Below, in pieces: positions 11,172 to 63,356 of a stretch of DNA of 64,000 nt (position 1 is its first letter; every line of letters begins with the position of its first letter). Under the pieces are notes generated by a model, which worked only from the letters and a program-made list of their open reading frames with translations, ran no database searches and was not told the DNA's origin. The position numbers were made by a program, and so were the translations under genes. The DNA is from Sclerodactyla briareus. Lineage: Eukaryota; Echinodermata; Holothuroidea; Dendrochirotida; Sclerodactylidae. The stretch is taken from the NCBI GenBank assembly GCA_026419785.1, contig JAODTK010002076.1, positions 186,001-250,000 on the forward strand, given 5' to 3'.

Positions 11172-11350
11172 AGTTTTTGGAACAGAGGTGGACCAGAAGA
11201 GTTATTAAAGCTTAATAGCATCCTTACCTTTGCCTCACCAAGACCAAGCTCAAGGCTTTCAGTTTTTGGAACAGAGGTGGACCAGAAGAGTTTATTAAAG
11301 CTTAATAGCATCCTTACCTTTGCCTCACCAAGACCAAGCTCAAGGCTTTC
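11172..11350 (-). repeat. Tandem 90-bp duplication of the KLC exon 2 end and its splice donor
   Basis: The segments 11172-11260 (89 bp) and 11261-11350 (90 bp) are identical except for one T in a T-run. Each carries the last 33 bases of KLC exon 2, the donor GTAAGG and about 57 bases of intron. The two donors are exactly 90 bp apart and the reading frame stays open between them. Splicing from the downstream donor would add 30 residues in frame, repeating SLELGLGEAK. It may be a real recent duplication or an assembly artefact. Confidence 0.9.
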
Positions 11351-11486
11351 CAAAGACTTTTCAATCATTCTTTCTTCTCTTCCACAAGGTTTGAGTCCCC
11401 CTGTCCTTGGTCCTTCTTGACCATCTTAAGAGACTGGTATAAACTGTTCAGTATATCATTGTGTTCATTCTTTAGTTGCTCAAGAC
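11318..11486 (-). CDS. KLC: Kinesin light chain, coiled-coil exon 2
   Basis: This exon encodes the start of the KLC heptad-repeat coiled coil, which binds the kinesin heavy chain stalk. Visible peptide includes GLEQLKNEHNDILNSLYQ, then SNLVEEKKE and, after a one-base frame change, MIEKSLESLELGLGEAK. These are family hallmarks (GLE.L..EH..IL, SNLVEEK, KSLE.LELGL.EA). The acceptor is strong (cttcccag at about 11487-11494) and the donor is GGCAAAG|GTAAGG (11312-11317). An A is missing in GAATGATT (expected GAAATGATT), so the raw frame hits TGA. The TPR exons are not found to the left and must lie beyond position 1. The last 33 bases and the donor are duplicated 90 bp downstream (see 11172-11350). 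From memory the peptide is especially close to sea urchin KLC. Confidence 0.93.
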
Positions 11487-14249
11487 CTGGGAAGACAATA
11501 TAAAGGAGACATGTCATTCACAGAAAAACAATTTGATTTTTTTTTATTAGGCTATGAATTATATTACTATAAGTTAAAGATTGGTTGGAAAGAGCTATGC
11601 TTCTTTTTGCAGATAAATTGTCTGTGTAGTGTGTAAGGTACCAACACAATGACAATCTTCATGGGGTTAACATGCTGTAAAACACACAGAACTTTGTAAA
11701 AAATAGGGGTGAGATTCACCATTCCACTGGATGCTATGAGTTATTAAAATCTTAGCAAGAGGGCTAAGCTCTCAACAGAGGTACCCAAGATCTCTCAGAC
11801 CCTTTCAAGTGAATTGCATGACCTGGTAAATATTTCTGTGGACTTTCAGTGATCACATGAGCACTGCAAACATTTTCCCAATTTATCCAAGAAAAAAAAA
11901 AATCCTACTGCTACCACATCATTACTCCCACCTGCTATGGGGATTAGACATTGTACACTTGGGTGTTCAACCACGCCTTATCGTGTCACATTTTGAGGTT
12001 GATATTATTGTGTATTATGATTGATCCACATGAAGAGCATCATTAAATAATGCATGCACCTCATAGATACACCAAGGAAATGATCAATCTTTTCAGGGAG
12101 ACAATAATTACACACCACTGAGGCAAGATGATACATCATGCTATATATTATTCATCACACTTCCTAGAAATGTGATGTCATGAAAGAGCCTATAATATTG
12201 TAAATGCCCATTTGAGCAATTTTTATTCACATTCCAAACAAACACTTTGTTCGAATTAATGTAAATGACACATCCGTGTAGGTAGTCCTATAATAACATG
12301 CTATATGTAGTTAACGGCATTATTATTAAGTGTCGAGACACGAGCATGAGTGGGCAATACCACCCCCCTGCAGTAGGACTGGTTGAGCACACAACATGAA
12401 TACTTCCGCTCAAAGTACTTTATACTACCCCAGCAATGACAAATGGATAGGCTGTGCACCCCTTATGAAGTCCTAACAAAATGTAGTTTCAGACTCAGGC
12501 TACAACTACCACAGTCTTGATATTTGGACAAGCTTTATTAAGCTTTATAAGGAAAATCCTAATCGCAAAGAACTTGAGTTACAGTAGAGCCGCCCAGCTG
12601 AAAATAACACCACAAATAATATCACATAACACACTGCAGTGAACCTTCAGTCATCATTGAGGGAGCCTGATTAAAGGAAAGCTATTTTATTGTTATTTTC
12701 CTAATCCTGTAAAATAGCAGTTTCTACAAACAGAATGGGTTTGTGAAATCTGTGAACTACGAGTACTTACCCTTATCATCCAGCAAACACTCCCAGGTCC
12801 GGGATAGAGAGGGAGGGGGAGGGACAGGGAAGGGACCCAAGTGAGGAAAGGACCCCAGGAAGGAAAAGGAGGCAAGGGCGCAGGGGTGAGGTAGAGGGAA
12901 GGAGAGGAAACCGGGTACTGACTAACCTACAAACCCGAACACCCCCATAAATAATGCCAAAACCCAACATGCGAACCTCGGCAGAGGTAAGAGACAAGCC
13001 CACTTGTGTTGTACCACACAAGTGAATGTTAGGCAAAGGGAGGCACACACACTCTCCACAGCCTAGGTTAGGCGCAGCCAAGGCTGTAGACAGTGATGAG
13101 GGGCGAAACAAAATCAACCAAAACATCGCGAATCCAAATGATACAGTACACTTTCAAAAACTGCTCTTAAGCCATGCTAGATGAGTAGCTTTGGTTCTCA
13201 ACCAACTATTATAACCCTTTGGTCAAAATGTTTGTAAATTCTCAATACCGAGAACACTAGGAACAGACAAATAGTCGGGCAAGAAGGAAGTGCGATGGGG
13301 TTGCCAACCTGGTACTATGTGAACGTAGCTATTGGGGTGGTGCGTGGTTGATAAGGGGTCTTAGGTAGAGTGTGTAAAATAGATTCTTCTATCGCCTCTA
13401 TCAAAATTTCAGGAGAACATCAACACCACTGAAAGAGAAAGCCATGGCATAAAAGTCGATGAGTCTAATTGCGAGAGTTTAACGGTGTTTGGGAGAATTC
13501 ACACAAAGATTGTACAAGATAGCTGTTCTGATGGCTCATTTTTTTTTGTGTTTATTCTGTTTCGTTGATGTGCCTACAGGGTTGTCTCTCATAGATGACA
13601 TCTTACTAACCAAAATTGTGGAAAATTAGGGCCAGTTTCAGTATTCTATACCCAAATATTTTGTTCATCATTTCAGCCTAAGCTTGTCCAAATATTTACC
13701 AAGATTCGACATCTCTTGTTAAATTTTCACAGACTTAGGTTGGAGCTGAAATCCCAGAAAAGATGCAGCCCTAACTGTTTGGGTGTTATGTGGTTTATAC
13801 AATTATAAAATATGGTCTTTTCCTGGTATGACACCATTGCGATGCTGTATCAAATGTACTTTTTTCACGGAAGTTCTTGCACCACCACTGAGGTCCCTGT
13901 ATGTGTGCCTTTGTCTAGCTGCATGCTTTTAGTGTCAACAATTGATGCTATAGTCTCCAAGAACTGCCAGTCACTAAACAAAGACAATGCAGATTATGAC
14001 ACATGGCATATCCACTGACAAGATCTGCAATGTAATGTGTATTTTATAATATCCTCCTGTAATAGTATCAGTCCCATCTAGTTTCCCATCATATGCAGCA
14101 ACAGTAGTATTACTGTGGGCTGCGACACATCCAACTCGACTGTCTGTTCTAGCATTGTCCAATTCAATTTCTACCCATTCAGGAAGGCCATTTCAGCCAT
14201 TCAGTGAACCACGGCTGTCCTTGATCATGGTGAGGGCTCATCTATAACT

Positions 14250-19370: not shown

Positions 19371-19457
19371 CTTTGATGACCTCCTTAGTGCCACCAACTA
19401 TTCATCCTGGTTCATGGCCTGGGGTGCCGGACCACCGGTAGAGCTCGAGTTAGACAT
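19371..19457 (-). CDS. KLC: Kinesin light chain, first coding exon
   Basis: This exon encodes the N-terminus of kinesin light chain, the cargo-binding and regulatory subunit of conventional kinesin-1. Read from 19457 leftwards it gives a Ser/Gly/Pro-rich leader (MSNSSSTGGPAPQ) and then NQDE, followed after a one-base frame change by VGGTKEVIK. That matches the family's QDEI...GTK.VI.G motif just before the coiled coil. The exon ends in AAAG|GTGAGG (donor at 19365-19370), and its last G joins GT-CTT-GAG of the exon at 11318-11486 to give G-L-E in frame, which proves the pairing. An A is missing near 19400 (GAATAG where GAAATAG is expected), which creates a false stop. I chose the ATG at 19457 (context ACCATG). 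A second in-frame ATG at 19478 has a poorer context, and TAA at 19500-19502 closes the frame upstream. Identity rests on the join to the next exon and is secure; the exact start is less so. Confidence 0.88.
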
Positions 19458-19841
19458 GGTGCCGTTTGTGTGCCTCATGACTTGAAACTCAAAACGGTGT
19501 TACTCTGCAACAATGAGAAGAGAGAATATCATCGATCCAGTGCAATAAACTACATCTTGTTCACCCAGTTTGATTATTTGTCGGAAAAACTCCTCTATTT
19601 ACTCTTCAATGATGAAATATTTGTGAGCAACATGTCATGTGGGTACATTCCAGTTTTCACAGCAAACGAGGACGATATGGCATTTCTACAGGAATTATTC
19701 ATTGTGACCTTCATTGATTGAAGCAATTGATGGAGATACAGTGCTAGGCTTGTGAAAAGCTCTTTGGAGGATTGAATGAGTCAGTACATTTTCAAGCTAA
19801 TGGAGGATCAAACAAACTATGTAGGAAACTGATAATGAAAT
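19458..19841 (-). promoter_or_regulatory. KLC: KLC 5' leader and presumed promoter side
   Basis: This is the sequence immediately upstream of the KLC start codon on the minus strand. An in-frame TAA at 19500-19502 bounds the coding frame. I see no convincing TATA box, initiator or splice acceptor, so it is unclear whether the 5' UTR is contiguous with the start exon or has an upstream exon. An 83-codon plus-strand frame crosses the region but has no recognisable similarity. Confidence 0.35.
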
Positions 19842-19845
19842 TTAA

Positions 19846-20287
19846 GGGGCAAAGTCCGAAGTCTAGCCAAAAATATTTATGTCATATAAGGGATATGTCA
19901 TATGATTGTGCATTGAAAATCATGCCAATCAAACTTTGTTTCATGTTCTAGCATGTTTGGTTATAATGTTACAAATTCTTGAAGATTATAAATTTATCAC
20001 TGCCAAGTTGGCAACAACAGTTGCAAAGCTGGCACATTGATTATGTCATGTCTACCAATTTTGAGGAAGAGGTTCTGTCTTGAATTTTCCCCCTTATAAT
20101 TGGTAGATATGACATCATAAGAAGTTGCCAGTTTGCCAAAATCACCGAATTATATGAAATTTGAGGAAGCCATATCTTCCCAACCGAACATGCTATAAAC
20201 CTGGAACAAAATGTTTTTGAATAATTTTTTTATTCTCTTTAACAATATAACAACAAAAAGAGTCTTAGATTTGTCTGGACTTTGCCT
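19846..20287. mobile_element. TTAA-flanked MITE, copy 2
   Basis: This is a diverged relative of 10676-11107 in the same orientation and nearly the same length. TTAA sits at 19842-19845 and 20288-20291, with terminal repeats GGGGCAAAGTCC and GGACTTTGCCT. Shared interior runs include TGATTGTGCATT.AAAATCATGCCAATCAAAC and the TCTACCAATTT...AATTGGTAGATATGAC pair. It lies just upstream of the KLC start exon. Confidence 0.82.
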
Positions 20288-21796
20288 TTAACAATACCTG
20301 CCATAGCATTTTCCAAGTCTGCCCAGTTAGTTTCCATTCATCTCAAGTAGGAGGATACATGTAGATTTCACTACCCCAAGCTCATAGGGGTGGGGCAATT
20401 TGGCATGTAAGAAAATAAACATCACCAGTCACCAGCACAATAAACCTATTTGGCTGATGATAAGCTTCACGTAGAGTATCATAATATGGCAGCATCTTAC
20501 AAAAGTCTACAGCAAATACTCAGCTTGATCCGCAAGTTTTTGGCTGGACAACATTTAACATCAGCATGAATATGATCTACAAGTATCTACTATCCATAAT
20601 GTGATATCAAAACACTGGTTTATCCAAAGCTCATTATTTACCCTGTGAAGCTACTTTAAGGATTAGGAATTCCAACAATCACGATGTTAGTCTGTGAATA
20701 AAAAAAGCATTGACACCTAGGAGTGATAAATACCCAGCCATGCGTTTCAGGACCGTAGCCATACCAGGGGACCTATAGAGCGGTTCATAGCTGAGGTACC
20801 AACATAAATCAGCCCTACATTCATGGCAGATATCTGCTCTCCCTCACTGAGCTTCAGGTTATCCTCCACCAACATCATGAGTGTATCACAAGTAGTACAC
20901 AAATCACAGGACAACAATGGCATGCTTCACCATTTCCATAGTATTTATGTGCTTGAGTTGTTGTAGGCCCAATGTAATCCCTGTGGTAACATAAGGTGAT
21001 TATAAATAGAGGACTTTCTTTATCACTGTATAAACAAATAGGCTAGCACTGTACAACCTTGAACCTACCTACATTACAATATCTCTAATTCTCCTACTGA
21101 TAATGATAGGGGAACTTTCACTACTTCTACCTTCTTCCTTATTGAGCCTCCTGTGACACTGAAGGACTGCACATACACACAATATATTGCCTATGCACAG
21201 TGATACTACAGGATGGAAATGAATATATATAATATCTATATTCTGGTCATCGCATTGGGCAATTGTTGTCACATGACATGACATTGAATTACCAGTAGTA
21301 TTACAAAATCATGCAAAAAGTCCCCATGGGAAAATACTATTATATACCTCCATCCAAGCAGTGACCAACAATATTAAATGAAGGCCTTTTCCCTGTGTGC
21401 CAGAAATGATCTGCGTCAAACATTGACAGCAACCTAGGGCTGATTTCACACTATCAACTTCAGTGAGTTTTCACATCAACATACGTGATCTACATATCTT
21501 TTACATATTGCAATACACATATAGCAATGCAACTGTTTACAAAAGAAAAGTCCAGCAAAACCGTTCCATCAAGCATTAGCCAAATATTGTTATTGCCTCG
21601 TCGGGGTTATATGAAACATAAATGAATTTTTTCCATCCGTGCAACAGGACAAATATTCCCATTTGTTGAAAGCTGGAACGAACCTATACAACTCTGCCTC
21701 AACATATTTAAACTGAATTGTTACAACCCAGCTCAACTCATGAAACTGTCTGTACCATCCCATTTATAGAAACATTATTTGTAAAATGATTAATAG

Positions 21797-22131
21797 CAGT
21801 GAACAAATTTAGGCAATTTCGTCAGGTAGTCCGCATCCAGATCAGATATCCCTTCAATCAGGACTACCTGCAAACTATATTTGTAAAGTTCTTGTTGTCC
21901 TATGGTATTTTTGGTGTCCCTCGGCATGGGTGGAAAAAGTTGGGAATTTGGGAAGCTCCTTCCCGGAAATCTTGCCATCGGGAGGAATCTTGCAATATGG
22001 AGGGAAATTTTTTCAATTTTGGGGGGATATCGTTGTCATATTACTTGGAAATACATTCTCCTTCCCGGGAAATTCACATTTTTTCCAGCACTGCGTCTCA
22101 GACTACCGGACTACTGTTAAATTTGTTCACG
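21797..22131. mobile_element. MITE with CAGTGAACAAATTTAG ends, copy 2
   Basis: A 335-bp element begins CAGTGAACAAATTTAG and ends TTAAATTTGTTCACG. Its 5' third matches 3592-3660, and it has an internal stem CAGGTAGTC...GACTACCTG. The interior between about 21900 and 22100 is unrelated to copy 1, so the two share ends rather than a full body. Confidence 0.68.
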
Positions 22132-25100
22132 GAATAGCCTCCATCTTGTACAGCATACAGTTTTGTCAGATAGTGTGTTTTTTCTAGTATGAAACAACTG
22201 ACTGATCTAAAACAACCATCACACAAGGTCAATCAATAGGCTATAACAAAGGTGGACAGTTGATTATTTACCACATTCACCACATTGTAATGTTTATGAC
22301 TAAATCCAGACATTTCCAGAACTGTAATTCAAGCAACACATAATATGCCAATGTAACACAACATGCATTTTCCTGTGTAAATGATGAGATATGACCAGAT
22401 GTGAACACAGGAATGTGTCAGTAGAGGGGGAGGGGGGAAGGGGTTGGTTTCAAGATTTAGACAAAGTAGTGAGTCCTCCTATGTGAAACAATTCAATTTA
22501 AGGGTGCAAAAAAGTGATAGTGCAGGCTCATAATTGTAGTAAAATACCTTAAAATTTGTCAGAAAAGCCTATTTTGGGGAAACACGTTATTTCACTTGAG
22601 TCATGGGAGTCTCAGGTAAGTCTCAGGTATGCCATGCTACAGGCACTTCCACAGAAAGGAAGAGAGGGGAGGAGGGGGAGAGGCTACTTTTATTTAATAT
22701 TGATGTACAATTGACATTAATTAGTACATTCGGAACTTGTTTTCTCTTATGTTGGGTCACACTGTCTGCAAACTCCCCTCCTTTTTCTTTTTGGAGGGGG
22801 GAGGGGGGGACATAAACATGTAATGATAAAGTGCAATTGCTCAGCAAAAGATGGGGGGATTTGATTTGAATTCTATGGGTTCAGGAAGCGAGGTAAGGCT
22901 CATCAAGGGACCCTGGCCATATTGATCGTGGATGAGCACCTCAATACCGCCGCCTTCTTCTCGACCATGCTCAGATGAGATCGGGGTAAGGGGTGTAACT
23001 AACCCAACTGCTCCCGACTGCCATTTCAACATCCCCAAACGAAAGGATGATCAGTGAACTCCAAGACCCGACCAAGACCAAGACCTTGCCCGTAGCAAAT
23101 GCATTCTCTATGCAACCCATATGCATTTATTTGGAAGCAGACCATGCACTCAAGTGGAGGCTAATCCAATTGTTCAAAGTTGAGCAACTACCTTGAACAG
23201 GAAAGCTCCTACATGGAGCCAAACACGAACAACATAACAAAACACTCCTCTCTCTTCTCTACAGCACAGTAGGCTAAACCCCTGAAACGTATACAGCAAG
23301 TATTGGTATAATCTAAAGTCTTCCTCTAGTTGCTTTTCACATTCAAAATACAGTAAATACTATAACCGACTACTGACAGCCCAATTACCCCCTCCCAGTG
23401 ACTTAAGTGGAGAGATACAGGGGAACCATACCCCTCCCCCTCCTATCGAAAAATGACAGAAACACTACAGTGAGTAGGACAGAACCTTATTAGTGCTTCA
23501 GTCAAGGGGGATAATATGGGCAGTTCAATGAGTTTGGCAAAACAGCACCCCCCCCCCCAAACACCCACCCCCCACACCACCCTTCTGAGATAACCAGTTA
23601 TGTATGACCATATTCTTCCCCAGCCTTCAGGTAACACAAAATAGGCCTATTAAGGAGCAAATGTTACAAAATCAATCAGATTCCATGTAGTGGACAAAGG
23701 GGCTGAATAAATAGTCTGTTCTGTGGAAGAAACATTGCCGAATAATTGGGCCGAAAATAATTACCATGATATTAGGGAAGAGTGCAGGCGGAGAGCTTCA
23801 TGTGAGCAGTACATGAGGTAAGCCCTAAAGATCAATTCAATAGTTGTCCTATAAAGTTTTTAGATCAGACAAACCATACGTCTCATTTATAACAAACAGG
23901 GAGGGGAATATCCTAGGCCAACTCTATATCCCAAACCCAAAAATTGCAAATTATATGTTCCAAGACACAAGGACTTACCAATATATTAAAATTGGAAGAC
24001 AGTAATTCTCACATACGCACGAGCCAAGGCTACACAATTCTAATTCCAATCCTTTTCAATAGCAGTTGGTACCAGCACCCCAAAACATGGCAGCATCTGA
24101 AGATTATTCCACTTTTGAAGTGATCTTCAATACAATGTGATACAATCTGAAAGACAACACTTAGCAGGAAAATGACTGGAAACCCTACAAATACTCCCCC
24201 TACATATGTACAAGAAAACTACACACTACGCACTGTCGAGAAATGTTGGCACAACATCTCATTAGCGGAGAGATGGACGGTACAAGGATATCTGTGCGTG
24301 CATGCATGATGGAAACCTCGTGCCAGCTCCACACGAGAGGCAGACTTAATGGAAATAGCGTCAGAGCTTTATTGGCAGACTGTGCCAGTGCTCATAGCCA
24401 CACCTTGAATAATGCTAGTAGGCTGGAGGATGAAGGGAGGCCCGATAATGGGGGCTCTCTCTATGAATACAAACCATCCTCGACACATGAATTAACATAA
24501 ATGCGACAACGATGGCTCAACAACTTGGCACGCAACTCTGATATTTCCGTGCCCGCTAATGATGACGTCAAAAGCCAGGCTTTGAGAAACCGTTGGACGA
24601 GAAACGGAGGACTTACCACGCTCAGGTGATAATTCTGGGAGAATTAGAGATGTAAAAAAATGCAAAGGAGTACAGATAAGTGAAGTGTGAGAATAAATGT
24701 GATCAGTGCAGGCCAGAAAACAGAAGTATAGAATCAGAATCCCTAAAGGCACATAAAGGGTAAATTGGGCAGATTAGAAAAGCATTCTCAACTTAAAGAT
24801 ATCTATCGCGTAGGCTACAACTAGAATAAGAGTATTTGCCAATGTTCTTGCACCTTGTTTTTTTCTGCCATTCCTAAAACTAGCCCATAAAGCAGCCATT
24901 GGGCCGAAAATGCAATTGGTACTGTAGTTATGAATGAATGCGAATGCATTTTTCAAATCACACATGATACTCTGGAAGAGTAAACACACCCCCAGCCCCA
25001 CACATTGAACATGTAGCAAAGAGGATATGAAGTCAATTCAGTTTTCCACTACTTGACTCATTCTGTCAAGGCTGCATTGTAAAGGCTGCATTGTAACTGG

Positions 25101-26138
25101 TATACAAGCCACAGCAGGGCTCGAAATAAGCAGTCGCCCGCTAGCTGAATGCTAGTGAAATCCGCTACAGGCGAGTGAAATACAGTTGCTTGGTAGCCTG
25201 TTTGACTTTTGACTAACCACCTAACCTATGCATTTTTATTCAGTCACCCTATAAACATTTTCCATGAGAGGGGGACTACTCTTTGTACAGCAATGTTAAT
25301 GACTAAATTATTATTTCAAATTTCCAGTACAACTAGGCATATATAAACAGCAGACTGGGACGCAACATTTGCGCCGCCGACTTTGCAGTTGGTTGCAGTT
25401 GTGATTTTATGGTGTATTATCAATGCCATGTGCACCGCATCAGCATCGCAACTAAATAACTGCGGCAGCTTTTGTGGGCTTCCTGGAATTGTATTTTGAC
25501 GGGTCTACCCGTGACTTGGGTAATGGTAGTTGGGAGGGAACATTGCCAATGGTGCAGACCCAAGTGGCTAATAAATATTTAACAGAAACATGTTTTCACT
25601 GGCTAGGAGCACATAAAGAGCTGTTATTAGTCAATAGGGCGGGTCAGGTCAATTATGGGGGCGTCCTACTCTTGGGTCCCAAACTGAAACCCTCTCCATT
25701 GCAATTGCTTAATACGCCTATGAACATGGTATTATGAAAACTACTTATTGCAGGCTACGAAACACGCTTCGGCACTTACAAAAAGCTTGAGATGGCCTGG
25801 CCCGGCTTCGAGTACCTTTTTTTTAATGGAAAGCCATGGCCCATTATTGACAAAACTGCCAGGATGTCCAATTATTTAGGCCATTCAGCATTTGGGTATG
25901 CATAAGTTTTGTATAAGACTGAGCAGGGCTGTATGCTAGGGTCATCTCTCACGGGGGAGGTGTCAATTCCTCAATTTCAGGTTTTCCTACAACAGTGAAC
26001 CGCACTGACACTAGGTCAGTGTCACTAGGTCCTTCATCAAAAATCAAGTCCTAGAAGAAATTCACATCATTTTGCTATTTTCTGGGCCCTCAGCTCTTAG
26101 GAATTAATCAATTACTTAAACTGATTAATTCGGTTAAA

Positions 26139-26169
26139 AGGAAAAAAGCATAGGCTATGCTTTTTTCCT
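26139..26169. repeat. 31-bp near-perfect palindrome
   Basis: Arms AGGAAAAAAGCATAG and CTATGCTTTTTTCCT flank a single G. Directly upstream a second stem, AATTAATCA...TGATTAATT, spans 26102-26130. Confidence 0.9.
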
Positions 26170-27526
26170 GGGTCCCCACCTATCAATGTTCCAGTACCTG
26201 CAGAGGGATATTTTAGAAGTGCAATTGAAAAATATTGTAAAATATGACAGTTGCAAAGTTCTTAAATACAGTAGCAATGCATGTAACACCAGCATTTTCA
26301 TCATCTAAGCAGTTTGTGGATGGTTTTATTGCTGATAGGGGTCTAATTTTCAAAGACTGCAATTTTCATTGATTAAATGCCTGTAGGCTTTCTCAATTTT
26401 GATACGTGGTGGGCTGGAATATATATTTGAATCATATCAAGTGATCCAAAGTTTATAAGGTTACTACAATAGAGCAAAAATTGTAAGATGAATATAGGCA
26501 GGAAATTAATACTGTTCATCTGATAATGGATCAGCCCCAGACAAATGGATAGGGCTTATATAAGCCTGTTCATGGTATGAGATTATAATCATAATGTGTC
26601 AAAGGTCATGGTGGAACTAACCGCTCGATTTGCACTTACAGTGTTCCAACCAATCTTTCAAAACTCCCCTAACAAAAGCTACACATCCTCCCAGCACAAA
26701 ACTCACAGATTTCCCCCATACTATATTAACAACAATATTCCCGACAAGAAGGGATGAATTGGTTGCGTAGTGGTGAGTTGGTAACAGTTTGAAAATAAGC
26801 TGTTATGATATATAACTATGGAGAGAAGCTCGTCTATACCCCTGGTGATTCTGTGGTGAGCATGCGCACATGTAGGTAAATTTGTTCTAACAATCAGATT
26901 TTCCACTAATTCTTATATTTTGCGAGCAAATTTTGAATTGAAGAAATATTCCGGAGCAAATTTTGAATTGAAAGAATATTCTGGAGTACAGTAGTTAGTG
27001 TTGTCATATACACAAATGGCCTATTACTAAGGTAGTACTGCAATTATTATCCAGACCATATAGGATCATACCCATTCTGGTAGTGTGTCCAGGTCGCATG
27101 CTGAGGGGAGGGGGGGGGGAGGTGGAAAAGGATGAAGTCCACAAATATCGAAGGCTTCAGAGAGGCTGTAGGACAAAACTCACAGAGTTGATCACTGATC
27201 TCAAGTGACCTTACAAATTTTCACAACTGAGTATAGGCTTCCCTTTAGTAAATAGAAAATAGGCTTTGCATCAATCGTAAATTAGCCATTTATCTTCTCC
27301 ACTGACCTGACTTTAACTGTTAAATTTACCAATTAATGTAGACCATATCCACCAAGTTTCATGAAAAAATCAACAAAGGATTAAATGCAATTCAACTATA
27401 CACATTAGACACTCAATATATCGCCAATGCCCGAATAAGTTTTGTGTACCACCAGAGTAAAAAGTCTTTAACGCACTGCATATCAATGCACCTATTGGTC
27501 ATGAGCCACCCTGTCAAGAACTTTCT

Positions 27527-27548
27527 GGCTGTCTATTAATAGACAGCC
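27527..27548. repeat. 22-bp perfect palindrome
   Basis: GGCTGTCTATT is followed immediately by AATAGACAGCC. Confidence 0.92.
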
Positions 27549-44132: not shown

Positions 44133-44140
44133 CACCCCCT

Positions 44141-46194: not shown

Positions 46195-46399
46195 TTCAGA
46201 CTTTGATCCCACTGGTGAACCCAAAACCGTAGGGTTCATGAACTCATCACCAGGAACACAACCAAGTGTGAGCTTCATTCATCAGGTGGGGTCGGTTATC
46301 CATGTTTTCCCAGCAATAACTGGCCAAAAATTGACTTTTCCACAACTTTCATATTTTCGACCAAAATTCACTCCTGACCTATACCAAAAACTAGAGCAC

Positions 46400-47930
46400 C
46401 AATGGTGCTGTAGCTCAAACTGCACAAATGTACCGAGATGAATGTACCTAATGGATAAAGTTCAAGATTTTGTTTCAAACTATGGCCAAGTTGTGCCCTG
46501 TTTATGACTGTTGACCACATCTTCATGTGGCCCAAAGATTTCTAGCAGTCATAAATGTTCGACTATGGGCCGCATGCCACACAGTGACACTGGACCATGG
46601 GTCCTAAATCCCGGGCCCACCCCGAAGGTACAGCTATTTAGACCTCATTGTAACTGAACATCAGCACTGTTAAACAAAGTTGTAGGACGGAGATACATGA
46701 TGTTGCAGTATTTCATATATTGGGCCCTTGGGCTCAAAATTCCCAAACACCTCCAATGGCCTCTACCAAGCGGGGGGACTGTTACATGCTAATTGGAAGA
46801 TTGAGTCAATCGAAGCTTGTGGAAGGTGCATTTCAAGTACCATTGTGTGAAAATTCCATAAATGGGCCCACATGCCCACATAGGCCTGGACCAAAATTCC
46901 TGAACCCCCAAAGGTACGGCTGTTTATAGATCCCTATGACTTAATGCCAGCACTGTGCACGAAATTCGTAAGAGGAGAATCAATTTGCGTAATTCCACAT
47001 GGGGACCCTAGGGCTCCCACTGGGCCTTGGGACCTAAATTCCTGAACAACCAGACAGTATGGCAGTTAGACCACTATTATGACTAAACATGAGCACTGTG
47101 CACAACATTTGCAGGAGAGACCAGATTTTGCAGTATTTCATATGATTGGCCCTAGGGCCAACTGAGCCTGGAGCCCAAAATCCCCGAACACCCTCCAATG
47201 GCCCTCTAACCAAAGACCATTACTTGTAACTCTGAAGATCATCATTTCAATCTTGTTGTAGGATATGCGTTCAGTATATCCATTGTGTGAAATTTCATAA
47301 AATGGGCCCACGAGCCAAGTTGGACCTTGACCAAAAAATCCTTGAACCCCCAGATTACGGCTGTCGACCATCATTATACTGAATGTCCAGCACTGTGCAC
47401 TGCATTCGTCAGAGGAGGCAGTTTTGGTGGAATCCACATGAATGGGCCCCAGGGCCCACACGGGCCCTTGGGACCTAATTCCCCTGGGCACCCTTAGGCA
47501 CAGCTCGTAGACCACGCATTATCACTGAACATCAGCAAAATTGTGCCAACAACTTTGGTAGGCGATACAAATTTTGCGGTATTTCACATAATATAATGGA
47601 ACCCTAGAACCAAACTGGGCCGTGAGCCCAAACTTCCGAACACCCATATGGCCCTTCACCCAAGGACCATTACTTGTAAATTGGAAGAAATCAATTGAAA
47701 TGGTGGAGGATATGCATTTCGAGTACATATTTGTGTGAAATTTCATAAAATGGGCCTTCGGGCCCAGGTGGGACCGTGGACCGAAAATTCTGAACTCTCG
47801 AGGTCACGGCTGCTAGAACCATGATTATGACCGAACATCATCTCTGTGCACCAAAATTTGTAGCAGAGATACATTTTTAAATTTTACACATAATTGCCTA
47901 TACTGGGGGCCCCTTTTTGACCTTGACCTT
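46400..47930 (+). repeat. Higher-order repeat of ~445 bp built from ~147-bp subunits
   Basis: The phrase GAACACC..CCAATGGCC recurs near 46745, 47186 and 47637, spacing 441 and 451 bp. Within each period, GG(T/C)(A/T)CGGCTGTTAGACCAT-like subunits occur in pairs about 145 bp apart and then about 295 bp to the next pair, with a third subunit type (ACCATTACTTGTAA.TTGGAAGA) between. GGGCCC-type palindromes punctuate the subunits. Long frames such as 47138-47515 are repeat-driven. Confidence 0.75.
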
Positions 47931-48099
47931 CCAAAATAAACATGTCCCATGGGTCAATAAACATTGTGTCCCAAGTTTGATCAACATCCGCCACTGAGAC
48001 TGTTCGGGGTCCAAAAGGCAATTGTTAACACACTGGGATAGATAGATAGAGAGTTACATGCAGATTCCAAAAGCTTAACCAGCATAGCTGGTTTGAGCT

Positions 48100-49180
48100 A
48101 ACAATTTTTAAGGGGGGGGCTCTCTGTACTCTCCATGAGAAAGCTCACACCAAATTTCCATCCCGATCAACCACCATTCTGATTTAATCGTGTCCAAGGT
48201 TTTCAATAACTTTACCTCTGGTGACCCTCAATGACCTCTGACTTGACCCCAAACAATTGGGTTCATGTACTCTCATGGGGAACACACTGCAAGTTGAACT
48301 TCACCATCCAGGTGGGGTCGAGTTAGTCATGTTCACAAGTCAAATTGGCCAATTAATTGACTTTTCACCATTTTCTATCTTCGACTAAATTCACCCCTGA
48401 CCTATACAAACCAATAGGGTTCCTGTACTCTCCAAAAAAAGTTACACTCCAATTTCAACTCGATCAAACCACCCATTCTGATTCATCGTGTTCACAAGGT
48501 TTTTCTGACTCTACCTTCTGGTGACCTCAATGACCTCTGACCTGACCCCAAACAAATAGGGTTTCAGTACTCATCATGGGAAGAACACTCACCAAGCATG
48601 ACTTATCCATCCAGGTGAGGTCGTGTTATCGGTTCACAAGCCAGCGTCACATACACACAAACTGTCCATTGACTTCATAGATTCCTCTGGCCTTCTCCAA
48701 GGATCAAAAAGTGGGTTCGCCGACCTGACCTGACCTCAAAACAAAGGTTCATGAACTCATCATGGGGAACACACATACCAATATGAGCTTCATCCATCCA
48801 TGTGGGGCCGAGTTATCGTGTTCACATCCAATGGCCAATTTTTGCACTTTTCACAAATTTTATATTTTTGACCAAAATTCACTCCCCCCGAACCATACTC
48901 AATAGGTTCCTGTACTCCTCAGAGAAAGCTACACAAATCTCAAATTTGACACCCGATCAGACCAACCATCTGGACTTATCGTGTCACAAGGTTTTCAGAC
49001 TTTAACCTCTGACCTGACCCAAAACAATAGGGTCTGTACTCATCCTGGGGAACACACATACCAAGTAAGAGCTTCATCCATCCAGTTTGGGGTCCGATTA
49101 TCGTGTTCCCAAGCCAGCCTCACATCCAACCACTGTCATACTTCCTATATTCCTCTGAACTTCGTCAAGGAATCAAAAAG
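48100..49180 (+). repeat. ~280-bp tandem repeat block B
   Basis: Three to four diverged units of the 32470-33540 family start near 48230, 48530, 48730 and 49005 at TGACCTCTGACCTGACCCC or shortened forms. They share TCATCATGGG.ACACAC.., CATCCA(G/T)GTGGGG and CGAGTTATCGTGTTCACAAG. A partial unit also lies at 46195-46400. Confidence 0.8.
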
Positions 49181-49744
49181 TGGGTTCCCGGGCCGACCGC
49201 TAGTCTCTGCCCTTTTTCGCGATTAGTGGTCTTTTTCATTTCGCAGTTAATATATTTCCACCAACCTGATCTTATAGAGGTCGAAAGATCAAATTGCTAG
49301 TTAGCGATATTAACGCAAATCCAAAACAATTAGAGGTGGATTAGTTCGCCAGCCCCTAATTGTGCCTCCTATAAAATGGCACTATCAGTGACCATTTTCA
49401 AATTTACAAGGACTGATTGTTGACATTGCTCTCGTGTACTGGGCATATCACGTCTTATGGCAGGAATACACAATATCCTGACATCACCATGGACAGTATG
49501 GTGTAAACAACACCATTGGGCTGTCATCACCACGGTGGCTGGACAGAATGCCGTTACCAAGTGGAATAGTTGAATCAAGCCACCTCTTAAATGACCCAAT
49601 AAGATCCATATTTCAAAATCACAGAAACTGCAAATAGGAGAGCAGTTGTTAAATGTTTTTCTCAAGGCCCATGAGGACACGGTTAACGTAGTTATTCATG
49701 GGCCAATGCCCATTGATCCCTCATATCAGAACATCAGCCTCACA

Positions 49745-50060
49745 GGCCAGCTCCCCTCCCAGGCCAGACCCCTTCCAGGCTAGATTCCTTCCAGACTGGA
49801 TACCTCTAGACTGATCCCTCCCAGGCCAGAGATCTTCCAGGCTGGATCCCTCCCAGGCTGGATCCCTCCCAGGCCAGATATCTTCCAGGCTGGATTCCTC
49901 CCAGACTTGATCCATCCCAGGCCAGAGATGCTCCAGGCTGATCCATCCCAGGCCCGGAGATCTTCCAGCTGGATCCATCCCAGCCATAGATCTTCACAGG
50001 CTGGATCCCTCCCAGCCAAGCTCTTCAGGCTGGATTTCCTCCCAGCCAGATTTCTCCATC
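49745..50060. repeat. GC-rich minisatellite, ~32-bp unit
   Basis: About ten copies of a unit close to CCAGGCTGGATCCCTCCC followed by AGGCCAGATATCTT are seen, with half-units. Because the unit lacks stops, long minus-strand frames (49721-50019) rich in Trp, Gly and Asp appear; they are a by-product. Confidence 0.85.
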
Positions 50061-50655
50061 ATGGGCCCTACTTTCCTCCATGCCTGGTCTTGGCAAACTC
50101 TAGCTTCAGATATTTATGCCTTCATTTCTAACACTGCAGATTGTTAGCATCCTCCAGTTTTTTTTTGTGCCAAGCAGAGCACCACAACACCTCACAAGCG
50201 CAGGACAAGGATGAATTAAACTGAGAGACGAAGGTGAATTTGAATGCCCACAGCAGGCCAACCTCAGGAAATCCATGTGGTGGTTGTGTTACCCGGTCAC
50301 ATATTTGAGTTTTTGCATGGGCCAGATGCATTGATTGACGCCTTTGTTGAGGAAAGTAGAACTCACTTCACTGGGACCACTATGGTAGCAATGTATCTCA
50401 CCATGGATAGATAATGAGTGACATTAAAGAGAGCACCATACTTTGTTTATTTGCTTTTATTTTAAACCGAAGCTCGTGAACATGCAACAAGTTATTAATA
50501 CCACACAAGCCCAATAAATGTATACACCCCCACAGTGGCTCAAATATCTGCCAAAAAAGGCAAGCAGGTATTTCTGTTCTGTTTCTTGCTCACAGTAACA
50601 ACTGATGCCCATTTTAAGCTTCTGCCAACTCCTACTTAACTGAAGCAATGCTCCG

Positions 50656-51315
50656 TTCCATTTACCTCGTGAACAGGTGTAACACGACTTCACACCGTTA
50701 CATTTGTACACAAGTCGTGATCATTAGTGGTGAAGTGGGAATTCCGATAGCAAGCAACTCGACTTCACGACCATCCAATATATGGCGGACATTCGACCAA
50801 CTTAGTGAAAAGTCGAAGTCGAATAGAAAATTAAATAAATATAAAAAATTTATTTTAAAATAAAAAACAAAACCCCTCCTGTACACATGAATGTATTCAG
50901 GTCAATATTCCTCGAAATTGAGAACATTTAGAAATAATCCCTGCAGTTAGCGGCGAAGCAATTCCAAATAGCGAAATTCGAACCAAAAGGCTTTTCCCGA
51001 CGTCGGCGATCGAGTGCTTTTCGCGAAACCAAACCAGTGTAGTAACTTAACTTTCGATTTTGAAAGTTGCTGTACATGCTCAAATTCCAATAAACCACTC
51101 CAATTCACGTCGATATTGATTAATTTCTAGGACTAATGAAACCTAGTAATTAGATCTGTCTTCATTCCACTATTGTAACAATACGGGGTGTTTTTCATTT
51201 CGCTGCATGTAGGAGGCCGCCATCTTGTATTCGTCCCATTTTCACGACTAGTTTTACTGGAACGCAATTCACGCGTGGGAAAGTCGTGATCACGAAATTC
51301 ACGAGGTAAATGGAA
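50656..51315. repeat. 18-bp perfect inverted repeat pair 660 bp apart
   Basis: TTCCATTTACCTCGTGAA at 50656-50673 recurs as its exact complement at 51298-51315, with further CACGACTT/AAGTCGTG matches just inside. It may be a TIR element or a locally mirrored regulatory region; no target duplication is evident. Confidence 0.6.
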
Positions 51316-52112
51316 GGCAGCACAAATTGAAATGGAGCGGTAAAATCACATCTCCAACGAGTTCAATTGCTCCTTTTTTTTTTTTTCCTGTTCCAACCAA
51401 GTCTGCAGTGACTCAGTAAAAATGCCAAATCGATTATGATCTCTATAATCAAATGGTCCTAATTGATATGCACTTGGGAACCCGTGCGCTTCACATTGGT
51501 GAAGCACTTCCACGATACCATATGGAGGTTGTTACATACATTCCCACAGTATGGACTGACCGACCGTCACTGTAGCTTACAACTCCTGTAACCAGATAAC
51601 CTCTCAGACTGGGCGGGTCAAGAATCGCTTTTCAATGTCCCCCCCCGACCATAGGGGTTTGACCCGAAGGTGAGGCACAAATCCTCCACACCCCACAGAT
51701 CCATTGATTTTGTTCCATAGTTTTAGGCTCCCCATTGCTTCCACATGCCAATATAGAGCAGCCAACCTGATACAAGGTACACGAGGTCATTCCTGGGCAT
51801 CCTTAGTCCGAACCATCCTATCAAGTATGTATGGTGTAGCGTTGAACAAACAGCATCAACCCGTGTGAACGACAATTATAGGTATATGTCACAGTTTTAA
51901 GTTGAGCATATATAACAAAATAAATTGCAGGTCAAGTTTTTATTTTTTAATACCAGGATTCAGAGTCGTGTGAAAAAAAAGCTTGTTTATATGCAGACAG
52001 CCAGGAGGATGCAAGTTTTGAGCTATCCTCTGTAACAGTGGGTCAGTGTGTCCTCCTGACCCCGAATGGTTTCCTGTGTTTCTGTTCAGCTTTCATTCTC
52101 AACGTTTCTTAG

Positions 52113-52227
52113 AATGGATAGGCTGTCTGGAAGTGTAGACTCAACTGCTGTGAGCTATCCCTATGGTAACCAACCATTCTCAAACCTGCTATCTACACTA
52201 CACAGACGCTATACCCTACATACACGT
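52113..52227 (+). CDS. Candidate internal exon on the plus strand, product unknown
   Basis: A pyrimidine-rich acceptor (ending tttcttag at 52112) and a strong donor (CGT|GTGAGT at 52228) bound 115 bp that is fully open in one frame: MDRLSGSVDSTAV, then SYPYGNQPFSNLL and STLHRRYTLHTR. The residue mix and tyrosine/proline pattern look protein-like. No neighbouring exon could be paired with it, and it would be transcribed towards the eIF5 3' end. Not recognised. Confidence 0.3.
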
Positions 52228-53630
52228 GTGAGTACTATCCTGGGAGATGAGGCTCCAGCATTTTCCCTAAGAATCTTTCATGCCCTGATCTTTTTTTTTA
52301 AACAAAATATTTCTCAATTCCTACATGCCTGATAAATGCTTCAGAAACTTCAGTACCCATAAGAAGAACGAGGCCCAATTATTCAATACAAAGTCGGCCT
52401 ATTGTGAACATCTAGGTGGAAGCACAATAACGTACAGAGAAAACGATGCCTGCCTACGGGCAATCATATCAAAAGAAGTGGTAGTGGTACCTCAGTTATA
52501 TCCAGTTTAGTGTCCCATTCATGTTGTAGAATTTCCCAAATATGTACTGACAGAGTGAATTGGTGATAACTCCATAAAGCGTAAAATTTTAGGAATTTAA
52601 ATGAAAAAAAAAAAAAACACTTTTAGCACAGTAAACATGCACTGCCAATATTCAGTGTAACAGGGAAAAAAGGAAGCTTTCATGAACTAATGTCCACATG
52701 GTAATGAACTTTATAGTGTAAACCGCGGCAGGCAATGTGCACATAATGGCTGGTGAATAATCTTTTGAAGAAAATTTAGAAAGTGACAGTCGTCAAATAC
52801 ACTTGGGGACTCCTAACATTCAGCTGTTTGAAAAAAAATATGTGAGGCATATTGACACTGGATATCAGTAGCATCATGTATGGATGCAACTTAATACTAC
52901 ATATATTTATGGGTATGCAGAGATATGCAGAGGTATGCAACCCTCCTGCTGATGGGATAATTGGCGGCTGTCACTGGCAAAAACAACATAGCACCACCCC
53001 TGCATACATAGGGTCAGAAACAAGCCAAAACATGACAGAGAATTAGCGATATATATCTGGTACAGAGCAGCGTTTATATTTATGTCTGATCAAAGCCAGC
53101 ACATTACTCCTGAAGATCATGTTATTAATGAGAATTTTTTTCTGGACTAAACAATACAGTCACTTGAATATCAAGTATATTATGGAACTGTAGAACACTC
53201 CAATAACCAGAACTATGGCCAGTACATAAGTTCTTAATCAAATCACAACTTGTTTGGTCATCGAGAATAATTCAGCTATAAATCCAAGCCCTATGGCAAT
53301 ATAATTAAACACTATTTACCAGTACAAGTAATATACTCATAATAACATATCAATTACCAATCTCGTCACAGGGGGGAAGTGCATTTGTCAGGGGGTGATT
53401 ACATCAGTGCGCAGAACAAGCAAGGTGATATATACCAACATGATCTGTCACTGAACAGGATATTTGTAAAAGGGATCATCGATTCCTCCACAAGGTGTTG
53501 TGTCACCAATGCGGAGGGAGAAGCGACGTGCCATCAGGGGTTATAGGATGAAGCAGGGGTGTATAGTATGACATTAGTGTTGTGCCGCGTTCAGCATCAG
53601 TCGGCGGCTATGTATGGGACCGATGCCATC

Positions 53631-53731
53631 TTAGATATCATCATGTCAATATCATCTTCCTCACGTTTCGCTGGGGCCTTCGGCTGTTCGACCACAAGCT
53701 TGTTTCAAGTTGGACTGTTCGAGAATGAGAT
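53631..53731 (-). CDS. EIF5: eIF5 last coding exon with stop codon
   Basis: The exon follows a strong acceptor (tctccctgcag, 53732-53742). It reads KLVVEQPKAPAKREEDDIDM and, once a missing G is restored in GACATGATGAT, ends DDI-stop (TAA at 53631-53633). The C-terminal DDIDxDxI-stop is the signature end of eIF5. An in-frame TGA in the first third of the exon implies a further indel or a slightly later acceptor. The 3' UTR must run left from here; I found no clear AATAAA on the minus strand down to about 52.5 kb, so the cleavage site is unplaced. Confidence 0.86.
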
Positions 53732-57884: not shown

Positions 57885-57991
57885 CTCAATTCTTCATCTT
57901 CTTCCTCACTGCTATCCTCTCGGCTCCTTGAGCCACTTGAGGAATGTTGCAGCCTCTCGTGGAACTGTACAGAGATGTCATTGGTCACATA
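57885..57991 (-). CDS. EIF5: eIF5 C-terminal exon with acidic tail
   Basis: The peptide reads YVTNDISVQFHER, then in a shifted frame AATFLKWLKEP, then EDSSEEEDEEL. In eIF5 the corresponding order is KYVSKELA.EIR..A.PF..WLKEAEEE, followed by an acidic patch. The WLKE motif and the Glu/Asp run make the assignment firm. The donor is TTGAG|GTACAT (57879-57884). The acceptor is uncertain by a few bases: CAAGAG|TAT is used here, giving direct continuity from WGLK, and CCAAG|AG is the alternative. Conserved residues occur in two frames in about 105 bases, consistent with indel error. Confidence 0.88.
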
Positions 57992-58029
57992 CTCTTGGGC
58001 ATGGCGGTCAATGAAAAACACCAGAATCC

Positions 58030-58260
58030 GTTCCGTTAGGAGTTATAGTTGGGGGGAGGGGGAGGTAAGCTTAGAAAAAATAACATTTAAAATATGTAAT
58101 TAGTGGAAATGTATTCTCGGGTCTCAACATTGAGAGGTTTTGTTTGAAGGCTACTGAGGCTTGCACCACTTGTTAAATTGGCTGCAAATGAATAGGCAAA
58201 CCCTGAATGGATGTAAGCACTGCTAAAAATCAAACCCCAGGAAACCAAACCCAATAGGCC
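58030..58260 (+). repeat. Dispersed repeat, copy 2
   Basis: Diverged copy of 2190-2400 starting at GGGGGAGGTAAGCTTAGAAA, inside an eIF5 intron. Confidence 0.5.
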
Positions 58261-59322: not shown

Positions 59323-59702
59323 GACTGATTATTGACAGGCGTGATCAGGCGCCTCGTAACCATTGACCTCTTGAAGTACCCTAAACACGTATTTGTCTGG
59401 GACAAAAAAAAGCACCCTAAATAAGTATAACCACAATATTTGTTAACCTAAACAAGGCTTCCGACTTCCAAATTCAGTCTTTCCCCTGGATATTCCCCAA
59501 AAACAATAGGTTTCTACAAAAAATAAAATACGCCCTCTTCCTTAATTCTAGTGGATTTTTGCACCCTTTCCACGTTCACACGTATCGTACCCGTATTTTT
59601 TAAAAGTACCCTATTTATGTGAATTCTTGGTTACACATGACACTCTCTTGTGAATGGCGAGTGCCCCCTCCCCCCTAGTAATCCTCCAAATGAATGACTA
59701 AC

Positions 59703-59873
59703 CTTGAGTCCCCATTCGTGGAAGACCTCCTCGTCGACCAGATCCATATCATACATCACCTTGAGGATTGAGGCTACCTTGGCATCAGTTTCTCAGGATG
59801 AACGTTTCCACAGAGCTGCTCAAGGCCGCCCAGCAGGGGGGGGGGCTTTGGGCCTTGTGGTTTGATTGGTGAA
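59703..59873 (-). CDS. EIF5: eIF5 C-terminal HEAT domain exon
   Basis: The exon encodes NHKAQ, then GGLEQLCGNVHPEKLMP, then after one restored A (CCAAGG for CCAAAGG) KVASILKVMYDMDLVDEEVF followed by HEWGLK. This matches eIF5's KKAQ..LL.GLE....., K..HILK.MYD.D.L.EE.. and W motifs, the conserved aromatic/acidic boxes of the W2-type domain. Acceptor tctttctag is at 59874-59882 and donor CTCAAG|GTTAGT at 59697-59702. A run of nine Gs at about 59837-59845 is another likely error site; the LLGG segment sits there. Confidence 0.94.
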
Positions 59874-60323: not shown

Positions 60324-60490
60324 CCGGAGAGAAAAATGCTTTGACGATTATAGTTTCAGCTGCTTGAGGATATTCTCATCTAGCAGAACCTCGGCCAGGA
60401 CAAGTGGGCACTTGTCCTTGTGTCCAGGCGCTCCCCCTCAAGCGCTATCTCCTTATCCTTGCCAATCAGCTGGTTGTCTGCCTTCAGTTT
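60324..60490 (-). CDS. EIF5: eIF5 C-terminal domain exon
   Basis: The peptide reads KLKADNQLIGKDKEIALEGE then RLDT. After restoring one A in ACAAGGAC the frame continues KDKCPLVLAEVLLDENILKQ, corresponding to eIF5's ..DKEI..EAERLD....PLVLTEVLF..KI..QI.. near the start of the C-terminal domain. Acceptor ctctccag is at 60491-60498 and donor TCCGG|GTAAGC at 60318-60323. A second frame change is needed near the 3' end, where YNRQSIFL fits the conserved KYRRHFLRF position. Confidence 0.93.
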
Positions 60491-60690
60491 CTGGAGAGAA
60501 AGAAAACGTAAACATCAAGTTGCTAGATAGAACCACTGCATGTACTTATCATGGGGTAGACTACACAAGAAGGTGATTGAATTGTATGTTCAATAACACC
60601 CGCTATATGTTTTGGCTGTCAAGTTGCAAAGTTGTAGGCATCCCCCTTTTTGGTCACCTCTTATAGCAGTCAAGGTTCAGGCATGCAAGG

Positions 60691-61656: not shown

Positions 61657-61820
61657 CTTCACGGTAGTCAAAGAATGCTTGGAGTCTCTCAGTCTGGGTC
61701 AGTTCCAGGTCGTGGGTCATGGTGAGTCTTGGCTCCAAAGGTGAGCTCCTTCATCCTCTCAGCGACTGCATCCTTTGAAGTATCCACCGACCACTCCACA
61801 TCATCAGCGCCGTCATCCTC
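61657..61820 (-). CDS. EIF5: eIF5 linker exon (acidic DWEV-like motif)
   Basis: The peptide starts EDDGADDVEWSVDTSKDAVA and continues with ERMKELTFGAK, then in a shifted frame MTHDLELTQTERLQAFFDY. This is the eIF5 linker: an acidic patch with Trp, then VDTS..A...RM.E, leading into ..LT...DLE.T..ER...FFD at the start of the C-terminal HEAT (W2-type) domain, which binds eIF2-beta and eIF1. Acceptor catctcag is at 61821-61828 and donor CGTGAAG|GTAGGA at 61651-61656. The exon joins cleanly after NNTT of the exon at 63140-63356. One frame break lies near ACTCACCATG; a base is gained or two are lost. Confidence 0.92.
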
Positions 61821-63139
61821 CTGAGATGGCCAATGAAAATTGTTGATATTAAAGGACAACTGCAGGATGAATATATAGCTGGAGAAAACCGAATGCGTCA
61901 GTCCCAAAACCCGAAGTTCATACCACTTTCCCGTGACAGAGTTACAGTCCTTTGAAGTTTGTGTATGTGTATTTGCCCAGATCGAAAGCATTTTAATCAT
62001 GCAATATGAATTATCTCATAGTTCACAACCCTGCGAACATTCTTTGTTTCCTGCTGAAATTCACACATTAATTTCACTTCGAAAGCATTTATTCTATGGG
62101 AAAGGTTGTCTTTAAGTGATTTGTAGGTGTTCTGTGTTACTTGGCGAGGGAAATACAACAAACTTCCGCTAAATGTTGACTTATTCAACAAAATGAAACA
62201 ATGAAATACATATCAATTTACTGGGTTGTCCATGTGGTGCGTCATCGTTATTGTGCACCATTGGGATTCTCCCCAATTCTCTCATATGACCAATCTTTGA
62301 ACGCCAGAAACCTTACATAGGAAAATCGTATTAAAATGGGGTTTCACAACCTATAGATACCGTTCTCCATTCTCTACGTATAACCTCTGTTATATCCGAC
62401 CTGCAGTTGCCTTTAAATGTGACAGTTTGATGGATCTTGAATGAAATTTCCCTAAAACTAATTTACACAAAACCTCCTACGGTCTAAGATGGGTGTGGAC
62501 ATGCGAGATACAGCCTGCCATGGCTACACTGCTACAGCCTAGCCTAAGGTACGCAATATTTCCTCATAGGACGATCAGAATTTTCTTGCAAATTTGACTT
62601 TTGAATCTGAAACTGATTACAAATCTCAAAGACAACAATTGGGAAGAAGTAGGGGCTAGTAGAATCTGGTTCGATGACAACAGAGCAGGTTGAATTGTTT
62701 AAACTAATTCCCCCCCCCCCGCAACAAACGACTAACCATGTTTTGTTTGTAACAAGTGGTGCCAGACCCTTGCCCACTGTTTATCCAAAGTCTAGAAAGA
62801 TTATCTCAGCAGCTGCTGTGAGTGGGTAATGTTTATAGATACATAAGTTATACATATAAGTCATTAAGACACATATGGGCAATTCCAGCTAAACCGGGCA
62901 CTAAAATATCAAACTATTTATTTTGCTTCACAAAGTATTCCATTATGTGATAGACATTCAAATAAAATTCCTTAAAGTTTTGTACCAAACGGGATTTGTT
63001 TGCAATTTTGTATTATATAAACGAGAAACGCTACTTGGGGATAAATATTCCTCCAAAACATCATGCATAGCAATTGATTGGCATTTTCAATGTCGCTGTG
63101 GAGGTAATTACCATGATACTGCATAATTCAGGTTCTTAC
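61821..63139 (-). other. EIF5: eIF5 intron between linker exons
   Basis: This intron is bounded by GTAAGAA at 63133-63139 and catctcag at 61821-61828. The protein reads straight through from NNTT to EDDG, so no exon is missing. It contains a poly-C run near 62710 and no recognised repeat. Confidence 0.75.
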
Positions 63140-63356
63140 CGTGGTGTTGTTCAGGTCTGTCGTCTCCTCAGCTTGCTTGTTCTTCTCCTCTTTGCGGTCC
63201 TTACGCTTGGTCTTACTCTCGCCGTAGCCTTGGGGTCCATCTCTGGTGGTTCTTCACGATGAACTGTGTGACCGGTGGGTCAATGGAGGAACTCCATGAT
63301 GGCCCGCAGGCAATGCACCGCGGGCCATTTGTGCCCTTCTTCACTTTCTGCATGTG
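63140..63356 (-). CDS. EIF5: eIF5 exon encoding the zinc-binding end of the N-terminal domain and the linker
   Basis: eIF5 is the GTPase-activating protein for eIF2 in the 43S/48S initiation complex. This exon covers the second half of its zinc-ribbon and the basic linker. The peptide reads HMQKVKKGTNGPRCIACG, matching the CxACG knuckle of eIF5, then after a frame change TQFIVKNH, then in a third frame the charged stretch ESKTKRKDRKEEKNKQAEE. Acceptor cattctgcag lies at 63357-63366 and donor ACCACG|GTAAGAA at 63133-63139. The N-terminal exons, including the catalytic Arg and the first CxxC, lie to the right of the window. Frame changes inside one exon, with conserved residues in each frame, point to sequence errors. 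Confidence 0.88.

Follow-up and report, generated by a model that had tools for sequence, protein, structure and literature searches.

A minus-strand eIF5 and kinesin light chain gene pair in the sea cucumber Sclerodactyla briareus, probably a remnant of an ancestral neighbourhood of animal genes with a Rel-class gene

The window analysed here is a stretch of 64,000 nucleotides from the sea cucumber Sclerodactyla briareus (positions 186001-250000 of contig JAODTK010002076.1, here C1941, 282,750 bp long, in an assembly of 319 Mb and 3171 contigs), and it carries parts of the genes for eIF5 and kinesin light chain (KLC). Human KLC1 and EIF5 proteins were searched against the whole contig by tblastn. 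The EIF5 query matches PDB chain 8oz0_H over 1-431, and the KLC1 query matches 9pmb_C over query residues 21-557, differing only at the last few residues. Both genes gave collinear exon series on the minus strand with eIF5 upstream, the matches extending from contig position 197496 to 138370 for KLC and from 261958 to about 243900 for eIF5. Some exons of both genes were weak when scored individually. At an E value of up to 1, KLC1, EIF5 and RELA (see below) had 15, 7 and 6 matches on the contig, and the reversed-query controls had 0, 1 and 0, respectively. These results confirm that eIF5 and KLC are neighbours on this contig, on one strand and with eIF5 upstream, as the initial annotation of the window had described them.

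Neither gene is complete in the window: of eIF5 it contains the 3' part, and of KLC the first two coding exons that were identified. KLC lies mostly below the window, and eIF5 begins above it. The proposed span of the pair ended at 11318, exactly where coding exon 2 of KLC has its 3' end and the splice donor gtaagg follows. Its other end, 63356, sits at the zinc-ribbon exon of eIF5, matched by tblastn at 63249-63341; this exon was accepted despite an E value of 9.7 when taken alone because it lies in order between flanking eIF5 exons. The proposed spacing of about 34 kb was reproduced as a gap of 34.2 kb from coding sequence to coding sequence if the tentative last eIF5 exon, at about 53.6 kb, is accepted; otherwise the gap is 38.4 kb. 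The features of the window are collected in Table 1.

Table 1. Features of the KLC-eIF5 locus, in positions of the window (position 1 is its first nucleotide)
Feature	Position	Strand	Evidence
90-bp tandem duplication spanning the splice donor of KLC exon 2 and the exon's 3' end	11172..11350	-	Tandem Repeats Finder score 349, repeat search, sequence
KLC coding exon 2 (GLEQLKNEHNDILNSLYQSLKM...LELGLGEAK)	11318..11486	-	tblastn E 7e-10 and sequence reading
KLC first coding exon	19371..19457	-	read by eye after a weak tblastn match (E 1.4)
KLC-eIF5 coding interval, without a convincing Pfam gene domain in the open reading frames scanned	19458..53608	.	Pfam scan
Reverse-transcriptase fragment of a retroelement	35583..35954	+	Pfam RVT_1 E 1.6e-4, 21.9 bits, curated cut-off 29.6
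Last coding exon of eIF5, tentative (acidic tail ...KREEDDID...)	53609..53700	-	weak: E 9.7 on the contig, 0.096 locally; frames
eIF5 exon, end of W2 domain (QEYVTNDISVQFHER / FLKWLKE / SSEEEDEE), frame-broken	57885..58042, 5' end approximate	-	tblastn, sequence, frames
eIF5 W2-domain exon (AKVASILKVMYDMDLVDEEVFHEWGLKVSHSF)	59688..59783	-	tblastn E 0.001-0.002 (whole contig) and 5e-6 (local stretch)
eIF5 exon, start of W2 domain (DKEIALEGERLDT / PLVLAEVLLDENILKQLK), one frame break	60333..60496	-	tblastn, frames
eIF5 central exon (WPSQEDDGADDVEWSVDTSKDAVAERMKELT.. / DLELTQTERLQAFFDY) with a single frame break	61664..61844	-	tblastn, frames
eIF5 exon, second half of zinc ribbon (...CIACG...FIVKN)	63249..63356, ends approximate	-	tblastn E 9.7 alone; frames

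The first KLC coding exon begins with an ATG at 19457, is homologous to the N-terminus of human KLC1 (QDEIISKTKQVIQGLEALKNEHN) and ends ...EVIK G ahead of the donor gtgagg. Its phase fits that of exon 2, and across the junction the two read VIK-G-LEQLKNEHND. Both exons contain an internal frame break, and exon 2 has the acceptor ccag on its 5' side. All KLC exons except these two fall below the window, and tblastn placed further ones at contig 185.7, 174.5, 170.7, 169.5, 168.0, 163.8, 157.2, 156.2 and 138.4 kb, the piece at 169.5 kb having an E value of 2.7 on its own. From the first to the last coding exon found, KLC spans 67 kb, with large introns. Six KLC pieces were identical at 177 of 191 residues to a putative sea-urchin KLC sequence that was written down after the window had been viewed, and at 144 of 191 to human. 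When the assembly was searched for the KLC TPR, all three matches were exons of this gene. The two copies of the 90-bp tandem duplication in exon 2 (98% matches) are either real or an assembly artefact; if real, the duplication would supply KLC with a second donor and an in-frame insertion of 30 residues. One KLC intron also holds a 6.4-kb segment (contig 176000-182400) with 61% G+C (51-69% per 500 bp) on a contig with 43%. It has very long open reading frames (ORFs) on both strands, no tandem repeat was reported in it, and the 50 ORFs scanned gave no Pfam domain; it is possibly a mobile element or a foreign insert.

The upstream exons of eIF5 were found by tblastn above the window, at contig 261.9, 256.2 and 250.5 kb. 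The exon that ends the W2 domain had an E value of 0.48 on the contig and 0.004 locally, and is followed past 57885 by the donor gtacat. Human residues about 301-330 were not recovered on the contig by tblastn, and two pattern scripts aimed at the missing eIF5 exons and the first KLC exon gave no output. The eIF5/eIF2B N-terminal family had a single match in the whole assembly, and this lay within the eIF5 gene described here. The gene for eIF2-beta, which we take to share this domain with eIF5, was not returned by that search; the assembly or the search is therefore incomplete, and the copy numbers given below are lower bounds.

Frame breaks were observed within several exons of both KLC and eIF5. 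We read them as uncorrected long-read or assembly noise and not as marks of pseudogenes, because the assembly searches turned up no second KLC or eIF5 gene; a pseudogene reading was set aside on this ground. In a noisy assembly, to which these breaks and the 90-bp duplication both point, eIF5 and KLC might have been brought together by a misjoin, or they might be a chance pair of neighbours. Against this stand the ordered, one-strand exon series of both genes on a contig without N, and the fact that a misjoin would need to unite three genes of one vertebrate paralogue group. We therefore regard a chance pair or an artefact as very unlikely.

The third of these genes encodes a Rel-class NF-kB protein and lies outside the window. 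From the contig outside the window, 484 ORFs of at least 72 amino acids were chosen; the Pfam scan covered 402 of them, and the other 82 lie in the KLC span (contig 138.3-176 kb). Two matches to Rel-homology domains, with E values of 6.9e-14 (dimerisation domain) and 0.0013, were judged real, and tblastn gave a Rel-homology exon series at contig 56423-38202. This gene is on the minus strand, as KLC and eIF5 are, and is some 82 kb beyond the final KLC exon that was identified. Its last exon, which encodes the dimerisation part, matched RelA best among PDB chains (E value of 2.9e-10, compared to 1.6e-8 for the best p105/p50 chain). The only other locus returned for the dimerisation domain of the Rel homology domain (RHD) is on contig C2965 and fits NFKB1 better than RELA. 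Searches of the assembly thus gave a single locus each for KLC, the Rel class and the NFKB1 class, and such single copies are expected of a state before or without the vertebrate genome duplications. Eight other families were matched outside the window, among them FYRN (1.6e-4) and YqgG (2.6e-4), with E values up to 0.0095; all were taken as chance except FYRN, which is uncertain. The FYRN match, a partial domain on the plus strand at contig 80407-80757 (21.7 bits, cut-off 24), may be one exon of a fourth gene between Rel and KLC, unrelated to the group.

KLC1 is one of four KLC paralogues in human. Human EIF5 and KLC1 probably have the same order and orientation as the pair on the contig, with five genes between them. 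KLC2 and KLC3 have RELA and RELB, respectively, on their upstream side, and RELB and KLC3 are about 0.3 Mb apart. Published accounts of these regions were compared with the contig. MARK3, KLC1 and EIF5 are named for one human duplication of 1.62 Mb and 22 genes at 14q32.31-q32.33 (PMC6612161), and one chromosome 14 locus is annotated with CKB, TRMT61A, BAG5, APOPT1, KLC1, XRCC3, ZFYVE21 and PPP1R13B (PMC7069985). On sheep chromosome 18, EIF5, MARK3, CKB and TRMT61A surround a single-nucleotide polymorphism (PMC12267044). On human 19q13, MARK4, CKM, KLC3 and PPP1R13L lie inside about 377 kb (PMC4015772); RELB is placed on chromosome 19 within the APOE region (PMC7164172); and a region list for pig SSC2 includes both KLC2 and RELA (PMC4763188). 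The 19q13 set of MARK4, CKM, KLC3 and PPP1R13L mirrors the chromosome 14 set of MARK3, CKB, KLC1 and PPP1R13B, and the MARK, creatine-kinase, KLC, PPP1R13 and Rel paralogues form parallel vertebrate sets. The linkage of EIF5 and KLC1 at human 14q32, which the initial annotation had proposed, is borne out as a segment shared with MARK3 (PMC6612161).

The gene content and strands of the contig, the copies returned from the assembly and the mammalian linkages in these papers together suggest that the linkage of eIF5, KLC and Rel is of common ancestry. The eIF5-KLC pair probably survives from an ancestral animal neighbourhood to which a Rel-class NF-kB gene also belonged. This reading is strengthened by the presence of a Rel-class gene on the contig together with the listing of RELA with KLC2 in the pig study (PMC4763188). 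The three clearly identified genes of the contig are KLC and two others that each have a counterpart near a mammalian KLC paralogue, and hence form a small pattern instead of a single coincidence. In terms of microsynteny, eIF5 and KLC are nearly adjacent here and lie close together in human (PMC6612161), and Rel is linked to them as an extra gene of the paralogon. The proposal that the pairing pre-dates the split of vertebrates and echinoderms gains from the Rel-class gene and the pig list, but it is weakened by an interval in coho salmon, where a 1.37-Mb segment carries eif5, mark3b, ckba, trmt61a, exoc3l4 and tnfaip2b with no klc listed (PMC8102513).

In the history that we propose, an ancestral animal neighbourhood would have held eIF5, KLC and Rel. 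In S. briareus the three would have stayed together on what is now one 283-kb contig, where eIF5 is followed by KLC and then by Rel, all on the minus strand. The vertebrate duplications would have copied the neighbourhood, and its copies would have kept different members: EIF5 with KLC1, RELA with KLC2, and RELB with KLC3 (human chromosome 19). We know of no functional coupling between eIF5, KLC and Rel. Retention is most likely to have been passive, through slow local rearrangement aided by the very long KLC gene.

Several observations, besides the salmon interval, weigh against an ancestral neighbourhood. A search of the contig for 19 proteins or domains of vertebrate neighbour genes gave no credible match; the best E values per batch of queries were 0.32 (two queries), 0.28 (nine) and 0.093 (eight), so the conserved block here consists of these genes alone. 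Rel lies downstream of KLC here and upstream of it in the human maps, so the order of Rel was probably not kept; what would be conserved is a neighbourhood and not a frozen gene order. The Rel exon at contig 44.0 kb favours NFKB1 (E value of 0.012) over RELA (1.6), and the predicted class of this gene depends mainly on its last RHD exon. The FYRN match fits no gene that we know of beside KLC or EIF5, and the contig could be misjoined. In favour of an ancestral neighbourhood, the chance that a random pair of neighbours would lie within six genes in human with matching order and strand is roughly 1.5e-4, and roughly 3e-3 given a shared ancestral chromosome, where both figures are arithmetic on assumed gene numbers. 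Against this, the odds are after the fact, the pair having been selected with the human map already in mind.

Part of this evidence would also fit a history in which eIF5 and KLC shared only an ancestral chromosome and became close independently here and in vertebrates. Free shuffling within a chromosome would leave the human intervening genes missing from the contig, as observed, and would account for a Rel-KLC order and strand unlike those of the human maps and for the lack of klc in the listed salmon interval (PMC8102513). Against it, the pair probably matches the human order and orientation, and the third gene of the contig, Rel, recurs with a KLC paralogue in a mammalian region (PMC4763188). 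We consider independent approach on one chromosome to be unlikely.

A special form of the ancestral neighbourhood differs in why the genes stayed together: the neighbourhood may have been held together by enhancers of one gene that sit within or past a neighbouring gene, such as inside the long introns of KLC. The 67-kb span and large introns of KLC speak for this, and in one study an enhancer in an intron of human KLC1 is described as controlling a promoter that a KLC1 isoform shares with BAG5 and APOPT1 (PMC7069985), a hint that nearby genes can be served from within a KLC intron. However, that case involves genes that were not found on our contig. Also, eIF5 and KLC are broadly expressed and are not typical targets of long-range control. 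Regulatory constraint of this kind is quite unlikely to be the reason. It is similarly improbable that eIF5, KLC and Rel formed a tight neighbourhood in the common ancestor with vertebrates that was kept for more than 500 million years by shared regulatory DNA, such as enhancers in the long KLC introns, and then parted reciprocally; on that account the vertebrate duplications would have left EIF5 with KLC1, RELA with KLC2 and RELB with KLC3. Passive retention of an ancestral neighbourhood is the mechanism that we favour.

The interval between the two genes was scanned with 359 ORFs of at least 45 amino acids from window positions 11.3-58.5 kb, compared with Pfam after the removal of repeats and low-complexity ORFs, a scan that could miss short exons. 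Sixteen families had E values of 0.05 or less, and RVT_1 alone was judged real. The other 15, with E values from 0.0016 to 0.049, were taken as chance, the scores detailed for them being far under the cut-offs; the strongest was WIV_dom_3 (18.9 bits, cut-off 27). Four of the 15 were RING-type families, three of which share about 15 residues of one plus-strand ORF at 31129-31317; these matches, at 14-15 bits with cut-offs of 27-31, are probably due to chance. Consistent with the initial annotation, in which the human intervening genes were not recognisable here, human proteins for MARK3 (kinase domain), CKB, TRMT61A, BAG5 and COA8 gave no credible tblastn match on the contig (0 of 5). The BAG domain had no match in the whole assembly, where its control was likewise silent. 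No Rfam family reached its gathering score anywhere on the contig, inside the window or outside it.

The interval also contains repeats. Two arrays of a 25-26-bp repeat lie at window positions 43159-43453 and 43586-43921, and the units of one array resemble the reverse complement of those in the other, as would fit a mobile element whose inverted arms are rich in repeats. At 49743-50050 is a tandem array whose periods are 16, 32 and 48 bp (CCCAGGCCAGATC type). Further searches of the assembly, for signs of an echinoderm genome, gave no match for COX1 (meant for a test of the mitochondrial code), for bindin (the control being likewise silent) or for the sea-urchin microRNA miR-2012 (at most one mismatch).

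Among the literature matches listed, none reported linkage of EIF5 and KLC outside vertebrates; such linkage may well stand in the supplementary tables of large synteny studies. PMC8934532 was set aside as irrelevant to EIF5 linkage, as its one eif5 match is Eif5b. Conserved microsynteny is already well known, and the eIF5-KLC-Rel example may be undescribed so far. If true, the ancestral linkage would add a fixed point for reconstructing how genes were arranged in the ancestor of deuterostomes or of bilaterians, and it would explain why the vertebrate KLC paralogues travel with MARK, creatine-kinase and Rel paralogues. With the eIF5-KLC pair one could also ask, in a simple setting, whether unrelated, broadly expressed genes are held together by long introns on their own or by shared enhancers.

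Three known systems resemble the arrangement described here. With the ancient microsynteny blocks of animals (PMC8851819 and works cited there) it has in common a local gene order common across phyla; the words 'kinesin', 'klc' and 'eif5' do not occur in the main text of PMC8851819. In the mammalian RELA-KLC2 region (pig SSC2, human 11q13), a Rel-class gene and a KLC gene share one region, as on our contig. Unlike our contig, the pig list contains no EIF5 and many genes between the two (PMC4763188), and the order and strand probably differ. A further parallel is the human 14q32.3 series EIF5-MARK3-CKB-TRMT61A-BAG5-KLC1. There, five genes intervene, none of which was found here, and human has several KLC genes whereas one was returned from this assembly; in both, EIF5 lies near a KLC gene, probably in the same order and orientation.

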